Below, piece after piece: positions 4,301 through 61,876 of a stretch of 64,000 nt of DNA. The notes beneath the pieces are model-generated. The model was given only the letters and a program-made list of their open reading frames with translations. It had not been told where the DNA came from and did no database searches. A program made the translations under genes and the position numbers. How positions within the stretch are numbered: the stretch's first letter is position 1; every line of letters begins with the position of its first letter. This DNA comes from Anadara kagoshimensis (Eukaryota; Mollusca; Bivalvia; Arcoida; Arcidae): NCBI GenBank assembly GCA_021292105.1, contig CM037861.1:33882172-33946171 (forward strand). Direction: 5' to 3'.

Positions 4301-4562
4301 TGTTGCAATTGAGCTCAAAATAGGAATTGTTTGACCAAAACCACTGACTTTGCCAGCTAGCAGACGACCGGAAAGGCGAACAACAACGGGAAGTAACTCC
4401 GATCCATTACAAGAAATTGATCATTTAGTTGTTGGGTCAAAACCCATTTGATTGTTATTAAATTTTTAGTCTACGCTTTTTAATTATTGAATAATTGCAA
4501 AAATACGATTTTGAAAAAAAAATCTGAATATCTATATTATAAAGAATACTATATGTATATAA

Positions 4563-11187: not shown

Positions 11188-11247
11188 ATGGCGAATTCAA
11201 ATCACCACAACCAACGTGACGGATTTGGAGCATCGTACTATGATCAG
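11188..11247 (+). CDS. FLN: Filamin exon 1 (unique short N-terminus)
   Basis: Twenty codons beginning MANSNHHNQRDGF and ending YYDQ, with an in-frame stop 15 bases upstream and a donor CAG|GTAAAC after codon 20 (phase 0). The next filamin exon (40510) also starts in phase 0, so the join is open. The peptide has no filamin homology; it is polar (Asn/His/Gln) and tyrosine-rich at its end. It replaces the actin-binding domain and all upstream repeats. The assignment rests on the start context, donor and phase. A transcript is needed to prove it. Confidence 0.7.
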
Positions 11248-11461
11248 GTAAACTATGGTGAAATTTATGATTTTTAAAGTAACTAAAATCCAATCTATAC
11301 AATACGCTTCTGTCCCAAAAATGCACAATCCTCCGTTAATTAATATGTTCCTTGACTTAAACCATGCAAATTTAAAAAATGAATAATTGTGTCAGTTTTC
11401 AAAATACTAGTATACATGAATTAAATTTATAAGGTGTCGTTTTGAGGATCAGACTATTTTA

Positions 11462-11499
<38 letters not shown>

Positions 11500-12746
11500 T
11501 ATAATAATAATAATAATAATAATAATTTTTATTTTAAAGTGCAACCCGATTTACAATTTTTTGCGTGCGCGATGACTTTCACTTATATATCTACTGGCCA
11601 GCCTGTATAGGCTTATGATGCACTATCAGTTATATGGCATTTTGAGACTGTCTATGGTACAATAGTACAATATATTAGTTTCGCGAGAATAATTAATTAA
11701 GTTATTATAGTTATTTTTTTTAAATATATATTCTAATTGTGTTGAATCTTTTTTACTAGTTGATTTTCGGGTTATCGGCAGTTTTCAAATTGGAGGTAAA
11801 AAAGGTAGACCGTAGTAACAAAAGTGCAGGCATGTAAACTGGTGATGGAATACTTTGCAAATTGTCAGGTTGACGATTTGAAAAGTTTACTTAAAATCTA
11901 GGAAAATTTCGTCATATTTGTAACGCAAACACGATTTAGTTAGATTTTATCAGTTGGCAGAGTTGCAGCTAGAACATATTTGTTTAAAAAGTGATTATCG
12001 AGATTCTTATTTAGCGCGTCGAACTGTAAATGGTACTGTTTTATGTGAGCTTGGACAGATACGGGATTGGAGATACAATTTGCGGTTTTTACCAGATATT
12101 GAACAATATGATGTGCTAATTTATTTCATACTTGTAAATGGATACTGCTCGAGTATCATAACAATTGCCAAAAGTTGTCAGATTTCAGTAAAATCTTAGC
12201 AAAGGAATTGTTGTGAAGTCTGATGCAATAAGGTTCTCGAGAAAGAATCAGATAAAATTAACATATTCCAGGAAAAATGTTGACCAGTGCACTGAAATGT
12301 GTTGAATATATTGTACAAGAAATGTCATTTAAAATCAAACTCAATTTATTATTATTATTATTATTATCTTTTGCACAATCCACATAAAATTGTAATGAGT
12401 ATATAAAGCTACAGTGAGTTCCTTTTCTTACGTAATGTAGTCATTCGCGGTAATAATCTTCACATGTGTGCGGAGGTATATTTGTGGTGATCTTGATCAC
12501 GAATGACGCTTTATCTGCTATCTATGTCTAGTTGACGTTTGGTGATGTAACATCAGAATCAGAATGATCTAAGACAGGTGGAGCAACGAATGAAAAATAA
12601 TTGGATTATTTGTCTTTCTTGTTCGTCTATGACGCTTAAACACACTTCATCTTCAAGAAATTCCATACATCTGCCATATATCACTGGTGACACCCAATAA
12701 AGTCATTGTTCCATAAAGCAAGGATGTGCTCTGGATAAAACACCTG

Positions 12747-12793
<47 letters not shown>

Positions 12794-15710
12794 ACGTGTT
12801 TAACTCAACTTGTCAGTCTTTACTTTAGTTTAAACTAAATTTTAATTAATTAAACATATTACAAGTTAACAATTACAAATAAATAAAAAAAAAATAGAAA
12901 AGTTTTTACTTTGATTTGGGATTGTGATTCAGACATGGATTGGTATTTTGTTTTTGATGCATATTTAATGCTACCTTAACAATATGATGAATGTCAGTGC
13001 TATCTATGAGAGTTATTTTTGTATATAGAAGTTATAGTTGAAGGTCGGATATCATTTTGACATTGTTCTGTCACTCTGAATTAATTTACACCTGTTATAC
13101 AATACAGGTTTGTTCACTGAGGAGATACTACTATTCTTCAACCCTGTAATAGTATCTATTATCCTGTCATATCTTTTTGAGTAAATAATTCCTTTTCCTT
13201 CAAGGGCGAGTCGATAAGTAACCAGCCAACTAATTTCTGGTTGAGACCTATCTCTTCTACTTCAGTTGGTAGTGTGCTCGCTCCGTAAGTGGGAGGTCGT
13301 GGGTTCGAAACTCGACCATGTCTGTACCAAGACTTGAAAGTGGGTAAGTGACTGTTCTTTCGCCAAGCACTCGGCATTACGAAATGAAATGGTCACGGTT
13401 CTTTCTGATAAAAACTTAAAATAAACGAGGTCCCGTGTCACAATATGGGTGGCACGATAAAGATCCCTGTTGTATAATGCCATAAGCGCAACGCACAGGC
13501 AAAAATTCTGCACCTTTGCCTATAGCTGGCGACGTCTCGATATAAGTGAAATATTCTTGATTGGGGCGTTAAACACCATTATTCAACCCAACTCTTCTTT
13601 TTCGGTAAAATGAGTCTAGTGTGATGTACTTGGACCAACTGTGTTCTAGTGCCATCAGCCCAGAACTGAAAAGACCATGGTCCTTTCCATAGACCCACGC
13701 TTCAACTATCTCCACGACTTCTTCTTCAGACCGGAAATGACGTACATTGATTCATTTTTTCAATTTTGGAAATAGGATGGAGTCGTTAGGAGCAAGGTCA
13801 GGCGAATAGGCAGGATATGCTATTAATTCATACCCGTTTCTCTCTATAACATCCAATGCAACTTTGCAAGTGTCGACTCTCAAAACTTTAAACAGAGAGT
13901 TTACCTCGAAGTTTTTCACGGAAGGCGATTCTCAGCAGGTCAGGCTAGCAAGTTTGCATAATACACTCCAGTTATTGTACTTCTTTTTAGAAGGTAATTT
14001 TCCAATGTCTTTATGAACTTGCAAAGTAAAATAGTCTGTGTTAAATTGCATAAAAGGTGGAGCTATCTTCTGTCAGTCAACGAGAGCATTTGACATATGA
14101 CGTTGACGAACGCGTGGAGCAATGTCTCTATGAAAATTGCAAAGTATAGTCAATGCCAAATACTTTATAAAAGCAAAAAATATTGCATTGGTAAATATTT
14201 AAGTTAAATATCCAACATAATAATATATTTTACGTGCCACAATTCTGTGGTCATCACCTTGTCAGCAGATAGTTGCGTCTTGAACCTCTTTGGCCTACCC
14301 TGACGACTCTGACCTTTATTCTCTGGTTCATAATAATGAACCCATGTCTCATCGCTAATAGATTTGGAGACCCAGTGGAATGTTAGCTTGTGCATACCTT
14401 AACGATCATGTAAGTTTGTTTAATTTCTACCATGTGAAGCATAATGCCTGTGCTATTTCTTCCTGAAGTCGCATATCGGAGTATACCAGATCCCGAACTT
14501 ACATATTTCTTCGTCGTTGGCATCAAGTGAGCGTCCAGACCTTGCTTCATTTTCTAAAGACGTTCTACCACGTTTGAATTCCGCTACCCAGAATTTAACT
14601 CGAGCATAAGATGGCACAGAAGGCCCATAAACATCGCGGCTTACTCGCCTTGTATTTTCTTGTTAATACAAATACAGCACGGTACTCAACTTTAGATGGA
14701 AACCATGCATATGAATCACTAGCCATGTTTGACAATGAAGTAACATTAACTTTTTAAATCACATCAAATTTCAACCTCTTATTTATCACGAACCAAGTAC
14801 ATCTGTGTATAGGTAACACAGGTATACATCTGTAGTTATACTCACCCCATAGAGTACACCTGTGTACTGTGTATATATTATTGGGTAGACCCTCCTATAT
14901 GAATATTCCTAATGAAAGGTCAAACGGACAGGTCAATGTTGTTTACCTATACCATAGTAGCAGAGGTCCCTCAGAAAAAACATAATAATGTAGTCTGGCT
15001 GCCAATGGTTGAAGGGAACAGAGCAATGTTTGGGCCTTTCTTTAACTTAGGAGATTTGTTCTGGGATGATTGAGTAAACCAACCACCTTCGGAAAGTAAA
15101 TTGACAACTTTCTGACACAAGGACCCAGTGGATATCAAGCCTAGGTTGTGAGATCAGTTGTCGTAGACCAGTAGGTCTCTGGTTAAGAAAGGGGAGAAGA
15201 ATTAAGAGAATTTGCTCCCGTAAGAGCTGTAGGTAGATCGTTACTTGACTAATCAAGCCACCTTCCCATTACACATCGGAGATTACTCCGACAGTGTTGT
15301 CATTGAAACCGTCGTATAGACGGTCTCATACAGACAAGCATGTGAAGGAATTACTGGCAGCTTAAGAAAATGGTATCGGTTAAATACTAACGCGAAAAGC
15401 CGTCACTGTCGTGTTTTAAAGGATGCCGTCAATTATTTCATTTAAATGCATGGTACGTTTTAAAAGTTGAATTTATTCAAGTCCGGTATATAAACCTTTA
15501 TTTTTTACTTTACTTGAATTTATTTATACACTTTGAATTATTCATTTATTTAATAAAATACAAAATAAAAACACTAAATAAAAAACTCTATTGACCATAG
15601 TTTACGATAGCCCTAGGCACCAAGTCACATAATCCCCCTTGGCCACGCCCCTGTTTATAGTTGTATTGGGCTTAAATCACCAGTCAATAGAACACAAGAG
15701 AGAGAGAGAG

Positions 15711-15776
<66 letters not shown>

Positions 15777-17287
15777 GATAATTTGGTTTCCATTCATTTG
15801 AAAGGAAACCGTTCATCCGATTGAGATAAAATTTAAAAAAAGGCAAAACTATTGCGATTGTATATATTTGGGTTTAATGTCAAATATAATTACACCTTTT
15901 GCGTGCCAAAATACTTTGGCTATCACCTTTTTAGCACTGAGATGGTTGCGTCTTGAACTTCTTTGGCCTAGTGACTGTTCTTTCGCCAAGCACTCGGGAT
16001 TACGAAATGAAAGTCACGTTTTTTTCGGATAGGAACTTAAAATGAACGAGGTCCCGTGTCACGGTGGGCTTGGCACGCTAAAGAACCCTGCTGTATAATG
16101 CCATCAGCGCAACGCACAGGCAAAATTTCTGCACCTTCGCCTATAGCTGGTGACGTCTCGATATAAGTGAAATATTCTTGACTGGGACGTTAAACACCAT
16201 TTACTCAACCCCTTACCCAGAATTTAACTCGAGCATTAGATGGCACAGAAGGCCCATAAACATCGCGGCTTACTCGCCTTTTATTTCCTTGTCTGTTTTA
16301 CCTTTTAAATACAAGTTCAGCACGGTACTCAACTTTAGATGAAAACCATGCATATGAATCACTAGCAATGTTTGACAATAAAGTTACATTAACTGTTCAA
16401 ATCACTTCAAATTTCAACCTCTTACACCCCACCTCAACTATACAGTCACGCTTTGGATAACTGAATAAGGATGACAGTGGAAAACCGGAAATAGTTTCGT
16501 TTCACGACTGTAGATATAGACGTGTACAAATCCCATCCACGACGTCAATTGACCACTGTCGTCTGGCTGCCAATGGTTAAAGGGAACGGAGCAAAGTTTG
16601 AGTATTTCTTTCACTTTTACCGAGGCGATGAGTTCTTGGATGGTGTTGCAAACCAACCACCTTTGGAAAGTAAATTGACAACTTTCTGAAACCAGGACCC
16701 AGTGGGTATCGAGCCTTGGCTGTGAGATCAGTTGTCATGGACCAATTGGTCTCTGGTTAAGAAAGGGGAGAAGAATTAAGAGAATTTGCTCCCGTAAGAG
16801 CTGTAGGTAGATCGTTACTTGACTAATCAAGCCACCTTCCCATTCCACATCGGAGATTACTCCGACAGTGTTGTCATTGAAACCGTCGTATAGACGGTCT
16901 CATACACACTAGCATGGGAAGGAATTACTTGATGATGAAGAAAATGGTATCTGTTAAATACTAACGCGAAAACCTTCACTGCAGTGTTTTGTAGGATACC
17001 TTCAATTATTTCATTTAAAAGCATGATATGTGTTTAAAGTTGAATTTATTCAAATCCGATATATAAACTTTTATTTTTTAATTTAATTTAATTTATTTAT
17101 AAAGTTTGAATTATTCGTTTATTTAATAAAATACAAAATAAAAACAATAAATAAAAAACTCTATTGACCATAGATCACGATAGCCCTAGGCACCAAGTCG
17201 CGTACTTCTGCTTGGCCACGCCCCTGTACATAGATGTGTTGGGCCTAAATCACTAGTCAATAGTACACACAATAGAGAGAGAGAGAG

Positions 17288-17340
<53 letters not shown>

Positions 17341-20300
17341 TTTGGTTTCTATGTATTTTAGAGAAACCCGTACATCCGGTTTCAAAGCTGAAACTTGGTC
17401 AGTTGATTTTTTTGTGGTGGTGGTGGTGAGTGATATGCGATTGCTCGACAGCCTTATAGCACATTCAAGATAGCCGCCGTTACTATAAATAGCAAAAAAA
17501 CTACAAATGGCCATCACAGCCTTATTTATATACCAATTTTGTTGGAATTTAAACATAGAAACAGAACTTGGTTTATTAAACAGTTTTTGGGGTTTTTTTA
17601 TTAAATGTTTAGTTTTCGAAATACACATGTACAATGTATCCAAGATGGCCACTGTTACTATGAAAAGCTAAATCCTATTTAAGTTAAGGAAATGATTATA
17701 CGTGAAACTGGAGCCAGGTATTGCTTCAATCAACAGTTTTTTCGGTTTTGGTTGGTTGTTTAAATGCTTAATCCTTGCGTCAACCTATAATATATCGCGG
17801 TCATTCGTTGAAGAATTGCTTTTACGTATGACTACTTGGTGGTTTTTCACCATTACTTCCCAGAGTCACACAAATATGTTGTGACAAGTTAACTTGATAT
17901 GACTAAAGCAGTAATATGTCGTGTTGTCTTAATACATAAAGAAATGCTGTGTTACTCGTGGCTGAATATACTGTTCTAAGAATATTTTGACACTCCCGCC
18001 CCCCTTTCAAAGAAGACTGGCATTACTTCAATAGAGTGTACAGTACATGCCTGTCTAAAGTTTAACATTGATGTTAAACTCACGAATTAGTGATCATCTC
18101 GGCTCTTCGTTAGCTATATCGCGACAGCTTTTCGTCAACTGCTCTCTGTCTTTCGGTAGATTTTCGGCCCCTAGCTATCAATATCTCGGACATGTGGAAA
18201 TCGAGCTTCAACTCCGGTATCCGTTAGCTCAGTGTAACACTTTTGTCAGTTCTGTGCTGTGAACCATTTGCTTATAGAAAAATTATCAAACGGAGTAATT
18301 ATACAATATAGAAGTACAAGATATATAAAGGCTGGGTATCATTCTGACATAGTAATGTCACTATGAATTTACCACTGTCTGCTACAATACAGGTTTATTC
18401 ACTGATGAGAGCTAGATACAGTACAGACCTGTCCAAAGTTTAACATTAAGATAACAAATTAGTACCGTTTATCTCGGCCCATCATTAACTACAGTTGTAC
18501 AGCTTTTTTGCAGCTGTTAACTACCTTGGCAGTAGTTAACCGAGAATCTATCTCTTGGTAGTTTTTTGGTCACTAACTATCCATATCTTGGCCAGTCGGT
18601 TGCCGGACTTACACTATTTTGTGTAAGCTAAGTGTTAAACTTTCGACAGGTCTGTACTGCACTTGTAAGTACTACTATTACTCCATTTAGTAATGGTGTT
18701 TCAATATCAAGTTCATGCACACTAATATTCATTATTGTCTATTTCAATATACCTGCTTCTCCTGCTTATGGGGGCAATTAATACGCTATGGTGGAGCTTG
18801 TTGCCAATACGGGGACTTTGTACAACGAAGCAAGCTGCTTGAAAATAAATTGTTGACTTACGGATATTGCAAGCCTATACTTATCAAGACCCTCAAAACG
18901 TTTTATGTCTGTCATCACAGTATTGTTGATAAGTTTGATGTCTCTGTGTCCAGAATTACCCTGGTTATATTTGAATACCCATAGTTCCATGTTTCTTTCA
19001 CATAATTTTGATTACACATGTGCCATGTGTAGCTAGCTCATCTCAACAGGAGGTGCTTACCCTTCCGGAGCACCCGACCTCACTACTCTGGTTGAATCGA
19101 AGTTCACGTGTCTAACCTTTGCTTCTGGTTTGTATTCGGACATAGATAAGTATGTTTGTTTTTTATCAGAATAACACATCCATACAGAGAAATTACATGT
19201 TTGAATTCTAAATGGGTGCCGCATCAGACAATCCAAGGAAATATTACAAATATTACCTGGAAATAATTAATATTTTGTTAAACAACTTAAACGAATTTTT
19301 TATATATATTGTAAGCATATTTAATTTCGCGTGTATTTATTTTCGCGGTAAAGGGGATTTAGACATCCGCGTATTTAAATTTCCGCGTTTTTGAAATATG
19401 CAATATTACACAATAAGCATAATATAATGTACGCTTGGTAGTCATTTTCGCGCAAAACAAACGAGCACCAAATAAGCGAGAATAGTACTTACACCGCGAA
19501 AATTAATACGCTAACAGTAGTGATAATAGAATAAGTCTAATGACCAAAAAACTAGACAATCTGGATCATATTATAGAGAGATTGTTTCCACCATGTAGTA
19601 ATTATATACTGTGTTAATGTAACTATCTACTGCTCAGCAGAAAATTGACAGTAATCATTATTACAAGCTAAACATTATTTTTTCATCTTTTATGTATAAA
19701 TTCCAACAAAAATCATGCGGCCGTATGATTGATCTTCCGGGTCTTAACACTCGGATTTAATTAATCGATTTGAATGATGTCCCAATTTTGGTTGTTTTCA
19801 GTCTTGGGTATCCAACACCTACGATGTCAAAATTTTCGCTGTTTTCTTGGACATGCAAAACTTACGAATATAATATACAAGTCTACGGAGAAGTGTATAT
19901 TACAAATCCATTTAAAGGATTACAACAAACAACGAATTTACCACCCCACGAAATGTTATTTTCTGAGATCCACGAAAACTGAACACCAAGAAAAAAAAGA
20001 TTTCTCAGTAATATTATTATCTCGTAAACAAAGCTTAAACTCTATTATAAGAACATGTGAAATTTAAATTAAGTCTAAAGTGAAAGGAAAAAACATTTTT
20101 TACACTATTGCAGTGTTCGAGTGTCAACACTGTTACTAATAGTTTGTTTAGATCTAACTTTTATGGTGTTCTGTAAGTGCCAAAATTTGCATGAGGTAGC
20201 TCCTTTGACCTCAAAGTGCGAAGGAACGAAAACACGATGGCGAAGGAGCGATAACGCAAAGGTGCGGAAATTCGATGACGAAGAAGCGATAACGCAAAGG

Positions 20301-23993: not shown

Positions 23994-24057
<64 letters not shown>

Positions 24058-24554: not shown

Positions 24555-24585
<31 letters not shown>

Positions 24586-34620: not shown

Positions 34621-34664
<44 letters not shown>

Positions 34665-46600: not shown

Positions 46601-46655
46601 GTAGTATGGATCATTCATAAACGTGAAGCCTTTAAGAGTTTGAACGGAACGAAAA

Positions 46656-46691
<36 letters not shown>

Positions 46692-55600: not shown

Positions 55601-58600
55601 CCGTACGCCATCCGGTGGGCATGAAGACTGCTTTGTACAACAAATGGACGATGGACTCTTTGCCCTTAGATTTGTTCCACGAGAAAATGGAGTTCATTTT
55701 GTAGATATCAAGTTAAACGACCACCATATACCAGACAGTCCATTTGCTGTCTTAGTCGGTTCCACAGCAGCTGATCCTGCAATGGTATGTGCCTACGGAG
55801 ATGGTTTAGAACATGGAAAGACAAGTAAGTTTGTATTATGTATTGAGTGTTTATTAATCGATCTTCTATTCTTTGGGTTGATTAGCACTATAGCTTATCC
55901 TGCATGTATTATGGTCCCTCCTAAGGGACCTTTTCTCCTATAGTGGTGTCCTGTATAGAAGTAAAGCGTAGGAATCGATGGGCTCGTTTGGATTATAATA
56001 TGCAGTTTAGAGTATCAGATAATGAATATTATTATCAATATCACTATGATTAACTTTATAACATTATCTTGACAACATGATTCACGGCTACAATTTAATC
56101 TAGATTTTTTTTTTAAATTTAAACTGATCAGGTATCAAATAGAGACAATGTCGATAACAATGATTATTTTTTTTCAGATTTGAAGAACAAATTTGTTGTC
56201 CGAACTACTGGGGCAGGAAGTGGTCTTCTTGCTGTTTACATTGACGGTCCTTCAAAAGCAGCTCTTAGTTGTCGGGAATTGGATGAAGGTTACGAATTCA
56301 GTTTTACACCTTTTGCACCTGGCAAATATTTGATAACCATCAAATACGGAAACATCAATATCGCTGGAAGTCCATATGCATCCATGGTAGTAGGTAAGTA
56401 ATTGTCCAGAACAATTCAAAATGAAACGGTTTGCTTGAGGCATGGCCAAATTTAAATTTGTCATATCAAACATACCAAATAAAAACTGATAAAATTGTTA
56501 ATAAATGTTTTCCTTAACTGATTTAACATAACAAGATATACAATCAAACTAGTAAACAGTCAAATATTGATACAAAGGTTCTACGTTTGCCATTGACCGA
56601 TGTCAAAATTGTTTTATAAAGTCATCAAGAAAGAGGTTGAAACAATTCCATGTGTTCACGGTGTCAGGATAGTATGATAATTAGTGCTTTGTGAGAAAAA
56701 GGTTTCATACTAATGGCGATCAGCTAATTGATATTAGTTTATAGTTTAATGTAACATAAATAATTAATTATAAATATATGCAAATATTTCGTCAAATTAT
56801 GTTTTTTTTATTATTTTCGGACCGCAGCTAGTTAACACGGTTTGATATCCAAGATGGGAAGTTGGAACACTACACAAAATTATTTATATCATTATTTAAT
56901 TTATTTTACTTTTTGATTAATTTAACTTCCTTATTTAAGATTATTAATTAATAATAATTAACAGACGGTTTTAATAACTACTGGTCCAAGTTTCTATATT
57001 TTGATAGTTTGGTTGTTACTCTGTGTCTTATACTTTTTAGTAGCGCAATATTTGCATAATATTATCAATTGATCTCATAACAAATAAAATCTGTTCTTCC
57101 CTGTCATTTGGAAAAAGGAAAGTCAGTTTTCTCAGAGTAAATATTGGGACAAAATAAACAAAATACTTTCTTGTCATTTGATCCATCACCTTAATAAACA
57201 ATAGTATTGTCTCCTTATTTTATTTATCTTTAGTTTCTAGTTTCTTTATTTTTCATATATTGTTTTTAGTTCTTTGTACATTAAGTACACGTATTTCAAT
57301 CACAAATTGCTTTTGTTTTTTTATCAACAAAAATTGGGGGAAATAATACAAATGGAGGTGGGTTCGTGTCTAATATAATTTTATGTCTAGGAATTTTGCT
57401 TCAAGATACACATATAATATTGTAAAATAGTAAGCAATGCAAAAAAAAAAAAGATTTTATTCTTCGAATAACAAAAATGTATATCGCCTTACCCCTGATT
57501 CTGTTCATCTGACACGAAACTCGATGGGAACAGGTTATCTCTCATTATTGACTGGTTTAGTTGATGTAATAATGTTAGCTATGTTTACTAATTTTGATGT
57601 AACAAACTAATAGTCAGATGTCTGATCTTTTTATATATTGTGTAGCTTTAGACGTTACAATTAGACAAGTTTGGTATTATTGGTTGGCCATACAATTAGG
57701 AGAGTAAAATATTAAAGTACAGTTTAACAAGAGAAATTGGGCAATGAAAAAACAATGCTAGATATGTATTGACGCCAAAAAAGGAATTAAAGGAATTACC
57801 ATACCATACTTAACTATTAAGTACCCGTATCCAACAATGTTATTAATTATATAACTACTGATGGGGAATTTTATTGTAAAAGACCCTCTGGCCTAGTGCT
57901 CCAAAAAGATAGCAGCTTAATAATAATATTGATAACCTTTACATATCTACATGTCACATAATTTCAAAATCCAATTTCTATGTACATGTATTTCATTTTA
58001 ATTTTAGAATAATTACCAGAAAGTATTGCTGTTTTAAAATAGCTAGCAAACAAACATAGTGTTACTCTTACGGAGGACCTGTCCTCACTTCCCTGGTAAA
58101 AATTCACTTAATTTGTCCGTTTTAAAATTTAACTTTTCTTTTGGATTGTGATTTGAACGTATGTGCTTGGTTGATATAATGATATGGTTTACTGAGACAT
58201 TGTTATCTCAATATTGTTTATCCCATCCTCTTATATTATTTTATTTGATCTTTATTCGTTTAGACATTGGTGATTATAGGTGAATAATTTTCATCTACAG
58301 ATTTGTATGACTTCTAATGAGAGATCAAACAGTACCAAACTTGTCTTATTATATATCTTAATTTGCTTACACTCGTACTATTATTATTAAACATGTATGG
58401 TATATAAAAGTGTATAATATGTTGTATGATTTTTCTTTTAATTTTTAACAGTTGCAGGTGGAAAAGGTTGGTGGTCAGATTTAAAACACTGGCCTAGGTC
58501 AATTTTGCAAGCTTTTGTTTTGAAATACCGCTACTCATTTGTTACTGCAAGTGAATTATTTACAAAATTAAAGAATTTTTGGGGATTTTTTTAAAGAAGA

Positions 58601-61600
58601 AACTTTCGTTAAAGCTGTAGGATGTTAATTTTGTGTATCAAAATCCATCAAAAACTGTTTTATCAATGTATAATAACTTCGATTAAAACTTGCTTTAACA
58701 TTTGATAGTGCTTAGACTGTGCATAGTTCTCTTGAGCAAGCTTACAGTTTACTGTTGTATCCTGCTGTCATATTCTCATATTTGACACAACATTATTTGA
58801 TCTATGTAATGAAGCACTATATTTGAATACAGTACCACGTTGGTTCGATGTAAGGTAAAAAAATTAATTGAATTAATATACATATCATTAATTACTTGAG
58901 TTTTTAGTGCATTGAATTTTACCTAACATCTTATGCAATGCCAAATGAATGTTAGTCGAAACCTTATTCTAGGAAAATGATGATGTAATATTATCTTTGA
59001 TTTTAATCATTTTATTTTTTCTTGGTCTCAATGCTGTGGTGATAAAATGCAAGATGTTTGGTAGCATAAATCTAGAGTTAATAACTTAATAGAAAATAAA
59101 AAGAGAAAAAAGTTCTAAAATATGAACCTAACAGTACTTGCTGCAGAATATTGATTAAACTGTTTATAATGTCCGATTATATTTTAAAATCTTAATGACC
59201 TTTCAGGAACCAAGTTTCCATCAAATGTACAGCGCCATTATTAATTGGTCAAAGTATTTTGTGTCAAACCAAGATTATGGATCACTAGCTGTCAAATACA
59301 ATGACGTCAGCAATAGAGTTCATCCATGTAGCGAATATTTGTGTGAACATTCCAACGTCATAGAAAAATTTAAAATAATGGATATCTATTAATCAATAAG
59401 TTCTCACCAACGTTTAAGGTCATCACGTAGTACACAGATGAACTCTATTGATAATAAATATGTCATGTGATATGTGACTAGTGACAGCTAGTGATTAAAG
59501 TTGCATTGCATTTTCTTTTACAGTGATATAGCTAGGTGGATAGGATTAGCTATCCTAGGACAGTGATGTTGGTTGTGTTTTACTCCGTATCAGTTCTGTT
59601 GTATACATAGTGTAGTTGTAGATATAGTGATGATTCGCTTTTTGAGAGTTTATGATATTGATTTTTACAACAACGCTTCAAAGCACTTGTTGCACGGAGT
59701 TGTTTAGAGAACTATTGTTGATTGAGGAAGAGGATTTTTATATCCCCTATGTAGTCGTAATTTCCATGACAACAGATTCCTGTCTTACCTTTTTTATTTC
59801 AATCGACGCCTACCTTTACCTAAACACCTTTCAGACAGCATTTCTGGATCTACCAACATGTTTGTGACTTTGTCATTTTATTTTTCCCGGTGTATCAATT
59901 TCTGTAAATGTTTTGTAGTTTTTACTGTGAAGTTTTGTTTAAGGGCACTTTTTATAGTTTCTATATGTCATATACTTGTACATTTACCCTTTGTTCTTAT
60001 ATCAAGTTTTATAATTGTTTTAATTTTTCATTACCATTAGAACTAAGAATAATAATGTAAATACTTCAGTAAAATCGTAAACTTTTCACTTCATTTGAGA
60101 ACTGCTTTATTTATTTTTATTAGAGTAATGTCTAAAATGAGAATATAAAAAGAATAATTATATCAATTAATTACAGATAAATAATTAGATATGTAAACAT
60201 TTGGAACTGGAATGATGATACTGGTCTTTCAGACATTTTTGGACCTTTATAATGGCAAATTTTCTTGTTTTTATAAGCGACACTAATACAGTTTCTTTTA
60301 TGACCAAGTTGCGTTATGCTGGATGTTGGTCAAAATGGCTGACCTTCAGTTGGTACCAGAACGTCTGATTTTATTATTATTATTATTATTACTTTTTTAG
60401 TTTTTTTGAAATCGAAGTAAGATTCGTGTTTTTAATACTAATCAACTGAGAAATATTTGCCGAGAGACATTTCCTTTAAGCATACGTAACAGGAATCTTC
60501 CAAGTCGTTAATATATAGCTATTATCAGCTGAAAGTAAAAACATCAATATAGCTATCTTTTATTCTTTACCTTAACTTTAGGTGGTGGTAGAAAACCCTC
60601 ACCAGTGAGTGAGCAGACGTCAATGGTTGTCGAGACAGTAGAAAAGAAAGGTGGAGTAGGAGGCGGTAAACGTTTCCGTGGTGATGCAAGTAAAGTACGT
60701 GTGGGAGGACCTGGTTTAAAGAAAGCCATGACTGGTCGTCTGCTGGCTGTCAATGTTGATGTTAAGGATGCTGGTGAGTATAGAATTCAGTTTCAATAGT
60801 GACAAGTTAAAACACTGTTTGTCCGATTTACATGAATTGTCCAAAATTATAAGATTCATATTTGTTGTTTTATAATGCCAGTGTTGTTTTTACTGGGTGA
60901 GTCTTTTCGATATATCATTTGGCTTTTTTCCGACAACTTAATGAAATACATTTTTCATTTTTGAAGCCTTGGCATTGATATTATTATCCATCGAAAAAAA
61001 CACAGTTCATGTTTATATCAAAAACAAACATACTAATCCATATCCGAATCACAATCCAGAAGCAAAGTAAAAACTTTGGAACTGACAAGTATATCTAATA
61101 TAACGTTAATAAGCCTAGCCTTATCAGGGCCCTCAAAAGATTTTATCGCCGTCATCACTATAGTTGATAAGTTTTATGTATCTGTGTCCAGGATTGAACT
61201 GAATATATTTGACGTTTCATAGTACTCAATTTTGATTATACACGTGATGGATGTAGCTAGCTAAACAGGAGGTGCTTACCCTTCTGAAGCACCCGGCCTT
61301 GCTTCCCTGGTGGAAGTTTACGTGTTTAACCTAACATGTCAGTTGCAAGTTTTTCACTTTGCTTCTGGGTTGTGATTAGGACAAGGATTAGTATGCTTGT
61401 TTTTTAATTAACACTTTTGCCAAATCAGGTAAGTGGGTTTTAAACGGTCTTGCAACCAGTTTTTTCTTCTTTTTTGTTATTTACTATATGTTGTTTAGGA
61501 AACCTTCATGACCCCAAAAACATTATTACTTCAAACTAAATATGGGCACTTTGTTACATTTGAATCAGTATGTATATCTTAAAACCTTTTGGAATTTTAA

Positions 61601-61876
61601 ATTATATAAATTTTTCTTATTTTTTCATATGAAAACATTGATATACAGGTAAATCCATATTAATCATCTTTTTATTTTATATCTTCAGGCCATGCCTTGC
61701 TGTGTGTTGGTATGATCGGTCCAAGTGGTTTGCCTGAACCAGAATTAAATGTTAGGAAAAATACTGCAACAGCATACACAGTATCTTACAAAGTCATTGA
61801 GCAAGGAGAACATACATTAGTCATCAAATGGGGAGACGAAGATGTTCCCGGAAGTCCATTCAGTCTCCACTCATAA
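11188..61876 (+). CDS. FLN: Filamin, short form (repeats 16-24), 16-exon gene model
   Basis: Filamin is a cytoplasmic actin cross-linker and scaffold made of about 96-residue Ig-like repeats. Joining exons 11188-11247, 40510-40645, 44249-44377, 44905-45075, 49519-49644 (or from 49487, see that exon), 50265-50468, 50968-51120, 51744-51872, 52468-52632, 52886-52987, 53445-53582, 54099-54229, 55536-55824, 56178-56393, 60582-60773 and 61689-61876 gives 2529 nt, an open frame of 842 residues. Approximate layout: unique N-terminus 1-20, half of repeat 16 (21-76), R17 (77-164), R18 (165-240), R19 (248-336), R20 (337-433), R21 (436-527), R22 (534-623), R23 (628-716), hinge 2 (717-751), R24 (752-842). 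The recurring GSPF motif ends most repeats, and nearly all introns are phase 1, splitting a glycine codon. No calponin-homology domain is present. The order matches FLNA R16-R24 from memory, which is the rod-2 region that carries GPIb/integrin-type binding repeats and the R24 dimerisation domain. Exons 2-16 are very secure; the link to exon 1 is inferred. Confidence 0.9.
11462..11528. repeat. (TAA)n microsatellite
   Basis: About 22 AAT/TAA units with one interruption, 200 bases into intron 1. Confidence 0.95.
11529..13200. other. Intron 1, largely unassigned
   Basis: Holds (TTA)n at about 12343, (TC)n at 12752-12791, and a fragment of repeat family C (about 12900-12955, gattgtgattcagacatgg). 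An 81-codon ORF at 11954-12199 shows no recognisable motif. Confidence 0.5.
13201..14815 (-). mobile_element. mariner transposon relic, with a nested SINE
   Basis: Read on the minus strand, the coding part begins with ATG at 14726 (MASDSYAWFPSKVEYRAV). Recognisable mariner blocks follow: VKFWVAEFKRGRTSLENEA with RSGRS (start of the DNA-binding to catalytic link), ISDETWVHYYEPENK with the first catalytic Asp (14320-14375), and YPAYSPDLAPNDS with the last Asp (about 13795-13830). The central part around the second Asp is missing or scrambled, and frames change several times, so the copy is dead. One terminal repeat (gcgagtcgataagtaaccag, 13206) matches that of the copy at 62842. A SINE sits at 13259-13591. 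Confidence 0.85.
13259..13591 (+). mobile_element. tRNA-derived SINE inserted into mariner
   Basis: A-box (cagttggtagtgtgctcgct) and B-box (ggttcgaaactcg) are followed by the family body (gttctttcgccaagcactcg) and tail (gatataagtgaaatattctt). A short direct repeat ctcttct flanks it at 13252-13258 and 13592-13598, and mariner sequence resumes on each side. Confidence 0.85.
14200..15846. repeat. Segmental tandem duplication, copy 1
   Basis: Carries the 5' part of the mariner relic, then ~900 bases of unclassified sequence including ctccgacagtgttgtcattg, ending in a GA/GT microsatellite (15704-15775). Copy 2 follows directly. No credible gene lies in the shared block. Confidence 0.85.
15865..17345. 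repeat. Segmental tandem duplication, copy 2
   Basis: Repeats copy 1 in the same order and orientation with moderate divergence. An internal part of mariner is replaced by a SINE fragment (15971-16205). Ends in a GA/GT microsatellite (17276-17340) like copy 1. Confidence 0.85.
15971..16205 (+). mobile_element. SINE fragment lacking its tRNA head
   Basis: Starts at gtgactgttctttcgccaag and runs to the family tail gacgttaaacaccatt. The A/B-box region is missing. It is flanked on both sides by minus-strand mariner sequence. Confidence 0.85.
17346..18043. other. Intron 1, low-copy repeat pieces
   Basis: Contains two diverged copies of a short block (caagatagccgccgttacta at about 17467; caagatggccactgttacta at about 17640). 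No gene seen. Confidence 0.5.
18044..18265. mobile_element. MITE-A copy
   Basis: Left end cagtacatgcctgtctaaag; right end ttagctcagtgtaacacttt. Internal motif catctcggctcttcgttagc. Confidence 0.75.
18417..18662. mobile_element. MITE-A copy, good inverted ends
   Basis: Left cagtacagacctgtccaaag; right aagtgttaaactttcgacag then gtctgtactg, which are reverse complements. This copy defines the family ends best. Confidence 0.85.
18715..19168 (+). mobile_element. Repeat family C, longest copy
   Basis: A ~450-bp dispersed repeat that contains aggaggtgcttacccttccg followed by gagcacc, a six-base-pair stem (ggtgct/agcacc) around a short loop, then ttcacgtgtctaacc and gacatagataagtatgtttg. Related copies lie at 41085, 42170, 43865, 45835, 58045, 61120 and 63765. 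ORFs on either strand do not resemble known transposase or reverse transcriptase. Confidence 0.7.
19169..20158. other. Intron 1, unassigned
   Basis: Contains a cluster of ttcgcg/cgcgaa words (19320-19505). No coding exon was recognised; the two overlapping ORFs near 19770-20067 have no family signature. Confidence 0.45.
20159..20451. mobile_element. Palindromic MITE, ~293 bp
   Basis: The left end (ttatggtgttctgtaagtgc) is the inverse of the right end (ttggcactaacagaccacca). The interior is rich in gcgaaggagcgataacgcaa units and their inverse, so most of the element can fold on itself. Confidence 0.8.
20721..21548. mobile_element. MITE-A copy expanded by an internal minisatellite
   Basis: Left end ctacaattcaggcctgtcga; right end ttagcttagtgttaatcctc to ctgcactgtag. 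The usual 220-bp body is replaced by the tandem array at 20765-21440. Confidence 0.75.
20765..21440. repeat. Minisatellite, 42-bp and ~71-bp higher-order units
   Basis: Units alternate between cagcatttctacagctgcta with tctacaaacatgtatcttgtgg, and a longer form carrying ttatgtatcttgtggcatta. The sequence lacks stops in all three + frames, which explains three long overlapping ORFs here. Confidence 0.95.
21549..23022. other. Intron 1, unassigned
   Basis: AT-rich, with half of a short hairpin element at about 21910 (attcaaaagtagcacatgtc). No gene. Confidence 0.5.
23023..23172. repeat. Three exact 50-bp tandem units
   Basis: attaagcataacacagagta through aaaagaacacaaa recurs at 23023, 23073 and 23123 with no visible differences, so the amplification is recent. 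Confidence 0.95.
23733..23908. mobile_element. MITE-B copy
   Basis: ~175 bp, starting cagtcgaaccggccttaaag and ending cctttatagacagatttaa, which are inverted. Other copies at 27277, 44387 and 51137. Confidence 0.65.
23996..24055. repeat. (AAT)n microsatellite
   Basis: About 20 uninterrupted AAT/TAA units. The poly-Asn ORF over it is an artefact. Confidence 0.97.
24107..24203. mobile_element. Short hairpin element, family E
   Basis: tcatgtgctacttttgaatt and ttcaaaagtagcacatgaca are inverted arms, with an extra internal inverted unit. The same arms occur at 33474-33568, 45130-45310 and 47672-47726. Confidence 0.7.
24554..24588. repeat. (TTTA)n microsatellite
   Basis: Eight to nine TTTA units. 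Confidence 0.95.
24600..26724. other. Intron 1, repeat-poor block
   Basis: One of the few stretches of intron 1 with no recognised transposon. It holds a region of higher GC (25300-25690) ending at a strong donor-like gtaagtgag (25697) and a perfect CRE-like tgacgtca at 26174. It may contain a regulatory element or a non-coding first exon; no coding exon is seen. Confidence 0.35.
26725..26990 (-). mobile_element. SINE relic, minus strand
   Basis: Read on the minus strand, the head is at 26990 and the tail at 26725 (gtgactttcgatataagtga). The body cgccaagcac-type segment is diverged (ttgttctttcgacaagcaat). Confidence 0.7.
27277..27452. mobile_element. MITE-B copy
   Basis: Starts acagtcaaacctatctttac and ends aaggcaggttggactgta (inverted). 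Internal gaacaattgggatgcaattc is shared with copies at 44387 and 51137. It is flanked by two diverged copies of a block with gatgtaagcaagac / gatgaaagcaagac. Confidence 0.75.
27719..27764. repeat. Poly-T / poly-G tract
   Basis: A T-rich run of about 30 followed by ten G; prone to sequencing error. Confidence 0.9.
27950..28200. repeat. Degenerate ~20-bp tandem repeat
   Basis: About eight variants of ggtcgtcatgtacccaag / aggtcgcaatatacccaatg. No function evident. Confidence 0.6.
28990..29225 (+). mobile_element. SINE relic
   Basis: Shares ccagatactccggtttcctc and a diverged tail with the SINE at 8216. The tRNA-like head is eroded. Confidence 0.5.
30312..30640 (+). mobile_element. tRNA-derived SINE, diverged
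   Basis: A-box gtcagttagtagagtgcttg, weak B-box gggttcaagc, body and tail (gatataagtgaaatgttctt) as in the copy at 30881, and an end of (TCAA)n. Confidence 0.8.
30881..31225 (+). mobile_element. Intact tRNA-derived SINE with 13-bp target duplication
   Basis: A-box tagctcagtcgttagagtgc and a perfect B-box ggttcgaaccc, followed by the family body and the tail ending in (ACTC)n. The 13-base sequence ctttgttgttaca occurs at 30868-30880 and again at 31226-31238, a perfect target-site duplication, so this is a recent retroposition. It serves as the reference for the other SINE copies in the window. A tRNA gene is excluded because the head lacks a mature 3' acceptor half. Confidence 0.95.
31375..31600 (+). 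mobile_element. SINE relic
   Basis: Shares ttactccggttttatcacc and tcgtctcgatataagtgaaa with the SINE family, with an eroded head. Confidence 0.55.
31868..32085. mobile_element. MITE-A copy
   Basis: Left cagtacaggcctgtcaaaag; right ttagtgttaaacattcgaca. Typical 218-bp length. Confidence 0.85.
32090..33470. other. Intron 1, unassigned with small repeat pieces
   Basis: Contains an inverted family C end (32672-32745, aaaacaaacatacagatcca) and a pair of gagcgatcgaagt blocks (33011 and 33108) that may be ends of another small element. ORFs on both strands at 32183-32521 have no family signature. Confidence 0.45.
33474..33568. mobile_element. Short hairpin element, family E
   Basis: tgtgctactttggaattttt is the left arm, and ttcaaaagtagcacatgg and atcaaaagtagcacatgaca are two successive right arms. 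Confidence 0.7.
34240..34505 (+). repeat. Dispersed repeat family D
   Basis: Contains ttttacagcacttgacggcc and gaaaagaaacccaaaggacc. Shared with 36370-36640 (+) and 48440-48660 (-). No ORF of note; class unknown. Confidence 0.75.
34624..34660. repeat. (CT)n microsatellite
   Basis: About 18 uninterrupted CT units. Confidence 0.97.
35096..35312. mobile_element. MITE-A copy
   Basis: Left cagtacagacctgtccaaag; right a diverged agactttcaacgggtctgta. The interior shares ggagtcgaagttcgacttcc with the copy at 4563. Confidence 0.75.
35313..36060. other. Intron 1, unassigned
   Basis: No gene or repeat recognised. Confidence 0.5.
36065..36355 (+). mobile_element. SINE relic
   Basis: tgaattttcgccaagcacgc and the ordered body pieces of the 30881 family are recognisable; strongly diverged. 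Confidence 0.55.
36370..36640 (+). repeat. Dispersed repeat family D
   Basis: Second + copy of the 34240 repeat, with tcactagacggccgtttcgg and gaaaagaaacccaagggacc. Confidence 0.75.
36945..37303 (-). mobile_element. tRNA-derived SINE of a different family, minus strand
   Basis: On the minus strand the head at 37303 reads ggccgcggtggcctaatgga with a B-box-like gggttcgagc. The tail at the low-coordinate end contains tgctgatgcgacgttaaata. Length is about 360 bp. Confidence 0.75.
38004..38083. repeat. Perfect 19-bp inverted repeat
   Basis: aaggtagaagtcatttttt at 38004-38022 is exactly complementary to 38065-38083, with an AT-rich loop of 42 bases. Confidence 0.85.
38090..39316. other. Intron 1, unassigned
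   Basis: Two diverged copies of ctgacatggagtaa (about 38757 and 38842) suggest an old duplication. No gene. Confidence 0.45.
39322..39396 (-). mobile_element. tRNA-like SINE head, isolated
   Basis: Minus strand gttagctcagttgatacc (A-box) and ggtcggggtttgaatacc (B-box), correctly spaced. No SINE body was recognised downstream and no acceptor stem was identified, so a true tRNA gene is unlikely. Confidence 0.5.
39955..40085. repeat. Tandem duplication, two ~65-bp units
   Basis: tacatggcgagtccaaattt / tacatggagagtcaaaatct, each followed by gaaaagcaacatga and aatgatatacaaa-type sequence. Confidence 0.8.
40140..40206. repeat. (AAT)n/(ATC)n microsatellite
   Basis: Mixed trinucleotide tract about 300 bases before filamin exon 2. 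Confidence 0.95.
40510..40645 (+). CDS. FLN: Filamin exon 2 (second half of repeat 16)
   Basis: Acceptor ttattgtag, then YTMPSVEGLTPDIKD..., a match to the FLNA R16 stretch that begins MPSGKVAQPTITDNKDG. It encodes the C-terminal half of the Ig fold (HEVQMIYEG) and ends with a single G of a split glycine codon (phase 1). The first half of R16 is not encoded in the window, so either the short isoform carries half a fold or this exon also joins an upstream exon outside the window. An ATG at 40516 could serve as start if a non-coding first exon is used. Confidence 0.93.
40625..40830 (+). repeat. Triplicated exon 2 donor region
   Basis: Three tandem copies of the junction segment: (aca)gg|gtatgacgccatcttg at 40645, gg|gtatgacgtcatcttg at about 40713, and cagg|gtatgacgccatcttg at about 40794. 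Each is followed by a diverged copy of tgtcaaaatctataataata. Only the first donor gives the phase that exon 3 needs. Confidence 0.85.
41085..41312 (+). mobile_element. Repeat family C copy
   Basis: gtagctagctaaacgggagg, the gaggtgcttccccttccgga hairpin region, ttcacgtgtctaacc and gattcggacatggattagta in family order. Confidence 0.75.
41934..42164. mobile_element. MITE-A copy
   Basis: Left cagtacaggcttgtcgagag; right end shortened (acatgtctgtactgta). Followed at once by a family C copy. Confidence 0.8.
42165..42325 (+). mobile_element. Repeat family C copy, truncated
   Basis: Starts in the hairpin region (ggaggtgcttacccgtctgg) and runs to gattcggacatggattagta and tgtttgttttt. Confidence 0.75.
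42330..43860. other. Filamin intron 2, unassigned
   Basis: AT-rich with no recognisable exon or repeat. Confidence 0.5.
43865..43990 (+). mobile_element. Repeat family C, 3' fragment
   Basis: ccggagcccccggtcccact through gacatgaattagtatgtttg. Confidence 0.75.
44249..44377 (+). CDS. FLN: Filamin exon 3 (end of R16, start of R17)
   Basis: Acceptor tgttacag. Encodes (G)SPFSCIVDQ, which closes repeat 16, then GYITAFGAGLLGG, the opening strand of repeat 17 (FLNA: HVTAYGPGLTHG). Ends phase 1 in G|GT. A MITE-B copy begins about 10 bases after the donor. Confidence 0.95.
44387..44568. mobile_element. MITE-B copy beside exon 3 donor
   Basis: Starts acagtcaaacctgtctgtaa ten bases after the donor and ends aagcaggttacactgtac, inverted. 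Contains gaacaattgggatgcaattc. Confidence 0.8.
44905..45075 (+). CDS. FLN: Filamin exon 4 (body of repeat 17)
   Basis: Encodes SIDIKIDGPAKVEPK through CDVSYLPMTPGAYNI to KGSPFVAKVSG, colinear with FLNA R17 (LAIEGPSKAEIS, SVSYLPVLPGDYSI, GSPFTARVTG). In FLNA this repeat binds the GPIb alpha tail through its CD face; whether the mollusc repeat has such a partner is unknown. Ends phase 1 at cag|gtaaat. Confidence 0.95.
45130..45310. mobile_element. Family E hairpin elements, clustered
   Basis: Several inverted arms: tcatgtgataattttgaatt, attcaaaattagttgtcata and attcaaaattagagcatgac. They suggest two nested or adjoining copies. Confidence 0.6.
45835..46262 (+). mobile_element. Repeat family C, long diverged copy
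   Basis: Colinear with 18715-19168, from the ttaatacgccatggt block through gtgtagctagcttaacatgg to ggatatggattggtatgttt. Confidence 0.7.
46658..46690. repeat. (AT)n microsatellite
   Basis: About 15 AT units in filamin intron 4. Confidence 0.95.
47054..47098 (+). CDS. FLN: Candidate 45-nt cassette exon between R17 and R18
   Basis: Flanked by a pyrimidine-rich acceptor (atgttttcattag) and a strong donor (CCTG|GTAAGTCAG). It is 45 nt long, starts and ends in phase 1 like its neighbours, and has no stop, so it can be included or skipped without shifting frame. Inclusion would replace the split Gly with Val and add AAEGIYQNGHLLRPG to the R17-R18 linker. No FLNA counterpart is recalled. Support is splice signals plus symmetry only. 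Confidence 0.4.
47100..48435. other. Filamin intron 4, mostly unassigned
   Basis: A family E hairpin lies at 47672-47726 (tcatgtgataatttttgaat and attcaaaattagaacatgat). No other element recognised. Confidence 0.5.
48440..48660 (-). repeat. Dispersed repeat family D, inverted copy
   Basis: Reverse of the 34240 repeat: tggtccaaggactactgatg and gactgtctagtgctgtaaaa. Confidence 0.75.
48665..49486. other. Filamin intron 4, 3' part, unassigned
   Basis: AT-rich, no repeat or exon seen before the exon 5 acceptor. Confidence 0.5.
49487..49644 (+). CDS. FLN: Filamin exon 5 (first half of repeat 18), with frame conflict
   Basis: The best acceptor (tgattttttag, ending 49486) opens an exon reading (G)EGRKRSQLS and then TAG at 49516-49518. 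The rest, GNTCEYDLNVSEPDIVDLNG..., lies in another frame. FLNA reads SHLKVGSAADIPINISETDL here, so SQLS and GNTCEYDLNVSEPDI are both homologous; a single G is missing between TCC and TAGGT. A second acceptor, tgtcctag ending 49518, starts the exon at 49519 in the correct phase and restores the gene frame without the missing base, at the cost of the EGRKRSQLS strand. Either the assembly lacks a base, the allele is mutated, or the inner acceptor is used. Ends phase 1 at ttgg|gtatgt. Confidence 0.85.
50265..50468 (+). CDS. FLN: Filamin exon 6 (end of R18, start of R19)
   Basis: Acceptor tttttcttgcag. Encodes AISSFCPSKTGKHQVHV, matching FLNA R18 GISFVPKETGEHLVHV without a gap, then KGSPFTINVS, and HASKVKVSGP opening repeat 19 (FLNA DASRVRVSGQG), ending DTADAG. 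Donor g|gtaagt, phase 1. Confidence 0.95.
50968..51120 (+). CDS. FLN: Filamin exon 7 (body of repeat 19)
   Basis: Encodes (G)YGGLSIVIEGPHRSEVE...YSPHEPGIYILNIRYADEHIQ, nearly colinear with FLNA R19 YGGLSLSIEGPSKVDIN and EPGNYIINIKFADQHVP. In FLNA the CD face of R19 is a ligand site masked by a strand of R18. The donor is caag|gtatta, and a MITE-B copy starts about 18 bases past it. Confidence 0.95.
51137..51307. mobile_element. MITE-B copy beside exon 7 donor
   Basis: Starts cacaacctgtctatagaacc about 18 bases after the donor and ends gacaggctgggctgta, inverted. Shares gaacaattgagatacaattc with the other copies. Confidence 0.8.
51744..51872 (+). CDS. FLN: Filamin exon 8 (end of R19, first strand of R20)
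   Basis: Encodes (G)SPFLLNVSG closing repeat 19, then a charged linker GRVRETLSKEMAQAEP and CELLLKIP. In FLNA the aligned GRVKESITRRRRAPS is the R20 strand that lies over R21 and blocks integrin binding, so the masking element looks conserved apart from the loss of the Arg run. Phase 1 at both ends. Confidence 0.93.
52468..52632 (+). CDS. FLN: Filamin exon 9 (body of repeat 20)
   Basis: Encodes (G)TNPFDMEASVTDPDGSTE through YKIFFTPAIEGLHTLSIKHKG, matching FLNA R20 DMTAQVTSPSGKTHEAE and [21 protein letters not shown]. Donor tctg|gtgagt, phase 1. Confidence 0.94.
52886..52987 (+). CDS. FLN: Filamin exon 10 (end of R20, start of R21)
   Basis: Encodes (G)SPFQYSVGQL then GGSHKVQVGGPGLERG, almost the same as FLNA GSPFQFTVGPLGEGGAHKV and RAGGPGLERAEAG. 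Acceptor ccttttcag; donor ttta|gtgagt with an Asn codon split in phase 1. Confidence 0.96.
53036..53085 (-). repeat. Repeat family C end fragment, inverted
   Basis: aaaaacaaacatactaatcc then aggtccgaattgtg, the reverse of the family 3' end. Confidence 0.6.
53445..53582 (+). CDS. FLN: Filamin exon 11 (body of repeat 21)
   Basis: Encodes NDFNIYTREAGAGELNVAIE... through GYSVTKPG, matching FLNA R21 FSIWTREAGAGGLAIAVEG. R21 is the main integrin-beta and migfilin binding repeat in vertebrate filamins; the TREAGAG signature is intact here. Phase 1 at both ends. Confidence 0.96.
54099..54229 (+). CDS. FLN: Filamin exon 12 (end of R21, start of R22)
   Basis: Encodes (G)MYGLHIKFAGEHIPNSPF closing repeat 21, then GQAKEVTVHALKDRGLK opening repeat 22 (FLNA GDARRLTVSSLQESGLKV). 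The donor AAG|gtatga leaves phase 0, the only phase 0 intron downstream of intron 1. Confidence 0.95.
54230..55535. other. Filamin intron 12, unassigned
   Basis: A short + strand ORF at 54448-54744 has no filamin or other signature. No repeat identified except a weak family E-like arm near 54975. Confidence 0.5.
55536..55824 (+). CDS. FLN: Filamin exon 13 (repeat 22, start of R23)
   Basis: The longest exon, 289 nt. Encodes VDKACTFTVSYNGASGQLNS..., FALRFVPRENGVHFVDIKL and IPDSPFAVLVG (FLNA R22 YAVRFIPRENGVYLIDVKF), then ADPAMVCAYGDGLEHGKT opening repeat 23 (FLNA GLVSAYGAGLEGG). Ends phase 1 at acaa|gtaagt. Confidence 0.96.
56178..56393 (+). CDS. FLN: Filamin exon 14 (repeat 23)
   Basis: Encodes NLKNKFVVRTTGAGSG, LLAVYIDGPSKAALSC, FSFTPFAPGKYLITIKYGN and IAGSPYASMVVG, colinear with FLNA R23 (FVVNTSNAGAGALSV, TIDGPSKVKMDC, VTYTPMAPGSYLISIKYGG). 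Ends phase 1 at gtag|gtaagt. Intron 14 (4.2 kb) holds a possible alternative 3' end. Confidence 0.96.
56394..58040. other. Filamin intron 14, 5' part, unassigned
   Basis: Very AT-rich. A weak family D fragment may lie at 57855-57900. No exon seen. Confidence 0.5.
58045..58168 (+). repeat. Repeat family C fragment
   Basis: cttacggaggacctgtcctc, cttccctggtaaaaattcac and ggattgtgatttgaacgt. Confidence 0.6.
58452..58594 (+). CDS. FLN: Candidate alternative terminal exon of filamin
   Basis: A strong pyrimidine tract (ttttcttttaatttttaacag) ends at 58451, with a tandem acceptor six bases on (ttgcag, 58457). Either start continues the exon 14 phase. The frame reads VAGGKGWWSDLKHWPR and then about 31 more residues to TAA at 58592. 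A weak donor at 58497 (CTAG|GTCAAT) could instead join in phase 2 to a good acceptor at 59205 (atgacctttcag) and give NQVSIKCTAPLLIGQ... up to TAG. Both versions would end filamin after repeat 23, with no hinge 2 or dimerisation repeat. There is no homology support, only splice signals, phase and the absence of repeats in the surrounding 1.6 kb. Confidence 0.35.
58600..60080 (+). other. Repeat-free block, possible alternative 3' UTR
   Basis: No transposon or microsatellite was recognised in about 1.5 kb, unlike the other long introns. It contains a good acceptor (tgacctttcag, 59205), an open stretch to 59392 in one frame, and AATAAA at 59095-59100. It could be the 3' UTR of a transcript ending at 58594 or after 59205. 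Confidence 0.3.
60582..60773 (+). CDS. FLN: Filamin exon 15 (hinge 2 and start of R24)
   Basis: Encodes (G)GGRKPSPVSEQTSMVVETVE and a Gly/Lys-rich hinge, then GDASKVRVGGPGLKKAM and VNVDVKDAG, matching the FLNA hinge 2 end and R24 start (DASKVVAKGLGLSKAYVG, DCSKAG). Hinge 2 is the calpain-sensitive flexible joint before the dimerisation repeat in FLNA. Donor ctg|gtgagt, phase 1. Confidence 0.95.
61016..61404. mobile_element. Repeat family C with inverted ends
   Basis: The left 74 bases (aaaacaaacatactaatcca through actttggaactgacaag) are the reverse complement of the right end (tgtcagttgcaagtttttca through gattagtatgcttgtttt). The central hairpin aggaggtgcttacccttctg is present. Either a complete foldback element or two copies in opposite orientation. 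Confidence 0.65.
61689..61876 (+). CDS. FLN: Filamin exon 16 (repeat 24, stop)
   Basis: Encodes (G)HALLCVGMIGPSGLPEPE, AYTVSYKVIEQGEHTLVIKWGDEDVPGSPF and ends SLHS then TAA at 61874. FLNA R24 reads [34 protein letters not shown]. R24 mediates filamin dimerisation, so the protein from this transcript should form dimers. Confidence 0.97.

Follow-up and report, generated by a model that had tools for sequence, protein, structure and literature searches.

Is a run of C-terminal filamin repeats that lacks an actin-binding domain (ABD) the short product of a longer filamin gene, or is it encoded by a gene of its own? The question is raised by the window, the whole stretch of 64,000 nucleotides analyzed here (C5:33882172-33946171), and we examined it by searches of the window and of the genome, a 1.115 Gb assembly of 36 contigs.

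Gene model and domain content

The filamin tail is encoded on the + strand from 40510 to 61876, in about 850 codons that comprise the second half of repeat 16 (R16) and R17-R24. The complete model has 18 exons on the + strand, two of which are small and optional, and yields a protein of 848, 853, or 868 residues. The length depends on the two small exons; the earlier note had summed 842 exon codons without an ABD. Pfam recognizes no calponin-homology (CH) domain in the model. The features are listed below, with differences from a second copy of the locus (see the third section) given where they matter.

11068..11187, + strand: stretch just 5′ of E1, candidate promoter or 5′ UTR (weak); 0/120 substitutions between copies
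11188..11247, + strand: E1, candidate first exon (unproven); 20 codons, phase-0 donor at 11247
11248..40509, + strand: first intron if E1 is used, 29 kb; in the second copy longer by about 50 kb
40510..40645, + strand: E2, second half of R16; phase-0 acceptor, ATG at 40516 a possible internal start
44249..44377, + strand: E3, end of R16 and first half of R17; matches to human filamin chains and C6
44905..45075, + strand: E4, second half of R17; matches to human filamin chains and C6
47054..47098, + strand: Em, candidate 45-nt in-frame cassette exon between R17 and R18; splice sites and phase
49487..49644, + strand: E5, first half of R18; acceptor ending at 49486 (strong) or 49500 (weaker)
50265..50468, + strand: E6, end of R18 and start of R19; filamin chain and C6 matches
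50968..51120, + strand: E7, R19; filamin chain match
51744..51872, + strand: E8, end of R19 and start of R20; filamin chain match
52468..52632, + strand: E9, R20; filamin chain match
52886..52987, + strand: E10, end of R20 and start of R21; filamin chain match
53445..53582, + strand: E11, R21; filamin chain match
54099..54229, + strand: E12, end of R21 and start of R22; filamin chain match
55536..55824, + strand: E13, R22 and start of R23; local filamin HMM and C6 match
56178..56393, + strand: E14, R23; local filamin HMM and C6 match
58452..58466, + strand: E15, possible 15-nt microexon in hinge 2; weak donor
60582..60773, + strand: E16, hinge 2 and start of R24; C6 match
61689..61876, + strand: E17, remainder of R24 and stop codon; filamin chain and C6 match

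Pfam detected nine filamin stretches in the model protein (E 6.8e-133), and the tandem filamin-type Ig repeats of the family are thereby present. The N-terminal ABD of two CH domains was found neither in the searches of the window nor, in a genome search that can miss short exons, within 16 Mb on C5, and since no such ABD was found, the window gene is classed from its sequence as a filamin paralogue and not as a canonical filamin. Residues 21-165 of the model match human filamin-B chain 5dcp from chain residue 28 (E 6.7e-33) and residues 20-166 match filamin-A chain 2k7p from chain residue 39 (E 3.7e-32); we take both chains to represent filamin repeats 16-17. Both matches begin inside the repeat, which bears out the earlier statement that E2 starts in the middle of R16, and this half repeat may not fold. 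Residues 251-535 match a filamin-A chain that presumably corresponds to repeats 19-21. R24, the dimerization repeat of known filamins, is present after hinge 2, as residues 761-853 match filamin-C chains and show 49% identity to the last repeat of the filamin on C6.

The window gave no match to Rfam. A large tandem array of 47/94 bases occupies 5114-7672, and other tandem arrays lie at 2583-3303, 3644-4323, 8827-9528, and 20764-21439. Inspection by eye suggests that a repeat of about 150 bases is dispersed through the introns (around 41180, 42190, 43870, 46130, 58070, 61270, and 63910). The stretch at 63.1-63.6 kb has a mariner-like look, a resemblance that we rejected because Pfam gave it no support.

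Relation to the full-length filamin on C6

The genome was searched for filamin sequence exon by exon at a threshold of E 0.001, a procedure that can miss short exons. It returned 79 matches, with 12 on C5, six in the window gene and six in its copy. Two CH matches were obtained on C5, at 50.8 and 52.7 Mb, about 17 Mb or more from the locus; this search also misses short exons, and it did not list the ABD pieces of C6 that a human ABD query detected. Within the window, an HMM built from R17-24 of the gene found, in six frames, 15 pieces from 40510 on, which are those exons by construction, and none elsewhere better than E 0.51. Pfam applied to three frames of the + strand at 1-41000 (E 1) gave nothing besides E2 and Secretin_N_2 (E 0.66), and the human ABD query did not match the window in six frames (best E 7.1). 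The check suggested in the earlier note, a look upstream for R1-15 and CH exons, was thus negative, all 12 filamin matches of C5 belonging to the gene or its copy.

A full-length filamin was found on C6. CH sequence lies there at 57403524 (genome CH search) and at 57435253-57438982 (human ABD query), together with many earlier filamin repeats, which were not counted singly. The last repeat before the hinge, taken as R15, ends with an exon at 57465500 in phase 0 and is followed by a 23.6 kb intron, an exon for the first half of R16 (57489084-57489206, phase 0 in and phase 1 out), an exon for its second half from 57489600, and then R17-R24. As C5 carries no detected R1-15 or CH sequence near the locus and the full-length filamin is on C6, we regard the window gene as separate, and its protein as no product of the full-length one. 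The earlier note's proposal, in which alternative transcription of a longer gene yields the isoform, is accordingly abandoned.

About 12 of the 14 intron positions after E2 are common to the window and C6, as judged by eye; the window introns E7/E8 and E11/E12 do not coincide with C6 introns, and C6 has one extra intron in R22. This conservation argues for duplication at the DNA level and against a retrocopy. In a tree of R20-21 with six rows, C6 is the closest sequence to that of the window (59% identity), the window branch measuring 0.72 against 0.11; the tree leaves the fork joining the window, C6, and the human chains open, and the age of the duplication is therefore not fixed. The two loci differ at the start of the exon for the second half of R16. 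In C6 and in one relative on C9 this exon begins 11 nt before the codon aligned with the window ATG, in phase 1, whereas the E2 acceptor of the window stands 6 nt before the ATG codon, in phase 0. Because of this phase, E2 is joined either by a phase-0 coding exon, such as E1, or by untranslated sequence.

Several searches of the window were directed at the first-half-R16 exon. By tblastn with the C6 exon, the best window match had E 0.22 and lay in a tandem repeat, while the C9 exon was recovered at E 1.6e-4. In a first scan with vertebrate templates the window reached 15, and 20 shuffles reached 10 to 21; in a second, the true C6 exon ranked second in C6 and the window gave no clear hit. In a third scan the true exon of C6 ranked highest there, at 15 (next 13); the best of the window was 16, in phase 0, ending at 26586 with a donor of 4.3, and 3/40 shuffles reached 16. 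With the C6 exon as template the window gave at best 16 in phase 0 (a 9-residue piece, 2/40 shuffles) and 5 in phase 1, and the C9 exon gave 44. In these scans of modest power, the exon appears to be absent from the window. The open stretch at 26534-26586 is short and loosely resembles the vertebrate first half of R16, with a pyrimidine-rich acceptor and a phase-0 donor.

Other filamin-like loci were seen in the genome. Two tandem mini-filamins lie at C9:50765001-50795000, each with R16, R20, and R21 pieces and the first with an R17 piece; the 30 kb fetched contained no CH domain and no piece best matching R18, R19, or R22-24. Like the window gene they are, over these 30 kb, ABD-less filamin tails that start with R16; unlike it they keep the first-half-R16 exon, and the first has ankyrin sequence just upstream. 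These ankyrin repeats (Ank_2, E 2.4e-15; about 3474-3719 of the fetched piece) are in a compatible phase, and an ankyrin-filamin fusion is a possible reading of the C9 sequence. CH and filamin matches also occur close together at C12:29.56-29.75M and at 2.0M, 11.0M, and 53.2M of C13, possibly representing further filamins or filamin-like genes.

We consider the locus to be a stand-alone filamin gene without an ABD, derived from the full-length gene by duplication of DNA (probability about 0.85). What was copied would be the terminal R16-R24 part of the filamin gene that is now on C6; the short gene would then have lost its first-half-R16 exon, and the next acceptor, that of E2, would have moved 5 nt, from phase 1 to phase 0. 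An FLN90-like isoform that starts with E1 at an internal promoter of a full-length filamin at this very locus would fit the extent of nine repeats, equal to that of FLN90 and FLN-1C, and the phase 0 of both the E1 donor and the E2 acceptor; with neither R1-R15 nor CH sequence found nearby and with a full-length filamin on C6 that has its own R16-24, we regard it as highly improbable. Further coding exons upstream, either beyond the window or unrecognized in it (e.g., the 26586 candidate), might instead provide another N-terminal part. On C9, ankyrin repeats with a phase-0 donor do lie upstream of a phase-0 first-half-R16 exon, and the 26586 candidate combines a pyrimidine-rich acceptor with a phase-0 donor. 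Yet the + strand at 1-41000 is empty for Pfam save E2 and one chance-level hit, and the candidate was equaled by 3/40 shuffles and is not the best match of the window to the C6 exon, so that such exons seem unlikely.

Second copy, selection, and the first exon

A copy of the locus in the same orientation lies 391-441 kb upstream on C5 (region C5:33442207-33555531, filamin matches at 33535853-33553433). It aligns over 51.6 kb with 95.0% identity outside the exons and 99.4% inside. Direct alignments of E2-E17 (17 exons, Em included) revealed eight substitutions between the copies, all of them synonymous. These exons offer 574 synonymous and 1928 nonsynonymous sites, which gives a chance of 8e-6 for an all-synonymous outcome if sites mutate alike. 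A codon comparison had first classed 9 changes as synonymous and 3 as nonsynonymous; four of these codons, at 40630-40644 (1 synonymous, 3 nonsynonymous), were dropped, since they had been aligned to a tandem repeat beside E2, where direct alignment shows a single change in E2. Synonymous divergence (8/574 = 1.4%) is near that of the gene-body introns (1.9%), and, as no amino acid is changed, this points to selection on the short filamin protein. The AG and GT at the intron edges of E2-E17 agree in both copies, and Em is identical between them, within an identical run of 347 bases.

Each copy as assembled has one coding indel. E5 of the window is without one base (window 49515) relative to the second copy; with the acceptor ending at 49486 its frame soon stops, and only the weaker AG ending at 49500 keeps it open. 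The other copy is missing one base in E16, at the place that matches window 60743. Neither copy is therefore open with its strongest acceptors, and our guess is that these single-base differences are assembly errors. Possibly the two copies are haplotypes that the assembly has kept next to each other. C4, C9, and C12 likewise each carry paired filamin matches, and such pairs would be either uncollapsed haplotypes or large duplications.

E1 (11188-11247) reads MANSNHHNQRDGFGASYYDQ and has an in-frame stop upstream and the donor CAG/GTAAAC in phase 0, as had been claimed for this 20-codon exon. The acceptor of E2, an exon beginning at 40510, is also in phase 0, but the proposed junction from 11247 to 40510 is not confirmed. 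Upstream of E2, 40.5 kb of sequence hold 11 candidate first exons, E1 among them, with a phase-0 donor scoring at least as high as that of E1; as a control, the reverse strand of this stretch gives 10. A purine at -3 together with G at +4 is found in E1 and one other candidate. Genome-wide, the tail pattern of E1 occurs solely at the two C5 copies, and the fetched parts of C6 and C9 gave no convincing E1-like exon.

In the second copy E1 is present at C5:33451983-33452235, with frame, ATG, upstream stop, and donor all kept, at 79 kb from E2 owing to extra sequence in the intron. Its absence there, suggested by an alignment break at window 11860, was rejected when E1 was found 44 kb further up. 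Eight of the other 10 candidates fall in the fetched collinear part of the copy, six intact and two broken, so that 7/9 of those checkable, E1 included, are intact. Three of the 60 bases of E1 differ between the copies, all nonsynonymously and in 2/20 codons; codons with a changed residue thus number 2/20 in E1 vs. 0/833 in E2-E17 (p 5e-4, Fisher test on codons). The 120 bases 5′ of E1 are free of substitutions but carry two small insertions in the other copy. E1 is a possible first exon, perhaps as a leader, and as such unproven. Between a coding E1 and a leader followed by the ATG at 40516, the odds for the start of transcription and translation are about even; the Met at 40516 also occurs in C6 and in the human filamin chains, and its presence is hence uninformative about starting there.

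These comparisons bear on two further alternatives. A decaying pair of pseudogenes would account for the one frameshifting base difference in each copy; against decay, the substitutions are synonymous in 8/8 cases and the splice-site dinucleotides agree between the copies, and we hold it to be quite unlikely. The separate gene may also be correctly recognized and E1 be noncoding, with an untranslated leader (E1 or other) joined to E2 and translation starting at the ATG at 40516 (MPSVEG...). We give this a chance slightly below even. It would suit the 3/60 differences of E1, all nonsynonymous, against none nonsynonymous in E2-E17, the 120 upstream bases without substitution, and the six other candidate first exons that are likewise intact in the copy; the frame, ATG, upstream stop, and donor of E1, kept in both copies, speak for coding. 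Were E1 noncoding, no frame constraint would have acted when the E2 acceptor left phase 1.

Possible function and known short filamins

For the stand-alone gene, a tentative history can be proposed, the parts of which are put forward jointly and with more doubt than belief. The short-isoform transcription unit of an ancestral filamin may have been duplicated out to become its own gene. Its internal promoter would have lain at hinge 1, inside the large phase-0 intron that measures 23.6 kb in C6, and a phase-0 E1 would first have fitted the first-half-R16 exon; after loss of that exon and the shift of the E2 acceptor to phase 0, E1 would fit directly. If so, an actin-free scaffold and an actin cross-linker would be separate, independently removable genes.

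Repeats R17, R19, and R21 of filamins bind receptor tails and other partners. By analogy with the family, the product would dimerize through R24 and offer the receptor- and partner-binding faces of these three repeats. It may serve as a membrane or signaling scaffold without actin cross-linking, as does FLN90 in fly muscle; alternatively, it could compete with full-length filamin or act as its partner. Where a single gene yields both the long and the short form, actin-free functions of filamin are difficult to isolate genetically. A lineage with a dedicated short gene whose product is under selection would demonstrate a distinct role for the actin-free scaffold and allow a clean knock-out; the locus is also a possible case of an isoform turned gene.

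Calpain releases an R16-24 fragment from vertebrate FLNA by proteolysis at hinge 1. The window protein likewise begins near R16 and has no ABD; unlike that fragment, its tail is gene-encoded. The start almost at the calpain hinge, as suggested in the earlier note, holds as a likeness in position only, since no earlier repeat (R15 included), hinge 1, or first half of R16 was found.

FLN90 of Drosophila cheerio is described as the product of a 3 kb transcript from the same gene as the 240 kDa FLN240, with nine predicted Ig repeats; it is the main form in fly muscle, where it localizes dPak and shapes the postsynapse (PMC5173320). The window gene resembles FLN90, so described, in its nine C-terminal filamin repeats without an ABD, the first being only half; it differs in that the long filamin is a different gene, on C6. 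Of the equivalence to FLN90 that had been proposed, the nine-repeat, ABD-less extent is retained and the same-gene origin is not. FLN-1C of C. elegans, an 836-aa protein with nine IgFLN repeats and no ABD, is made from an alternative transcription start of the full-length gene fln-1; muscle and hypodermis express its reporter (PMC3143143). The window gene again shares with it the nine C-terminal repeats (half only for the first) and the lack of an ABD; unlike FLN-1C as described there, its short filamin does not come from the long-filamin gene. No separate short filamin gene was found in the titles and abstracts of the open-licence literature searched. Relative to that literature, ABD-less short filamins are known as isoforms, and what is new here is a probable separate gene for one.
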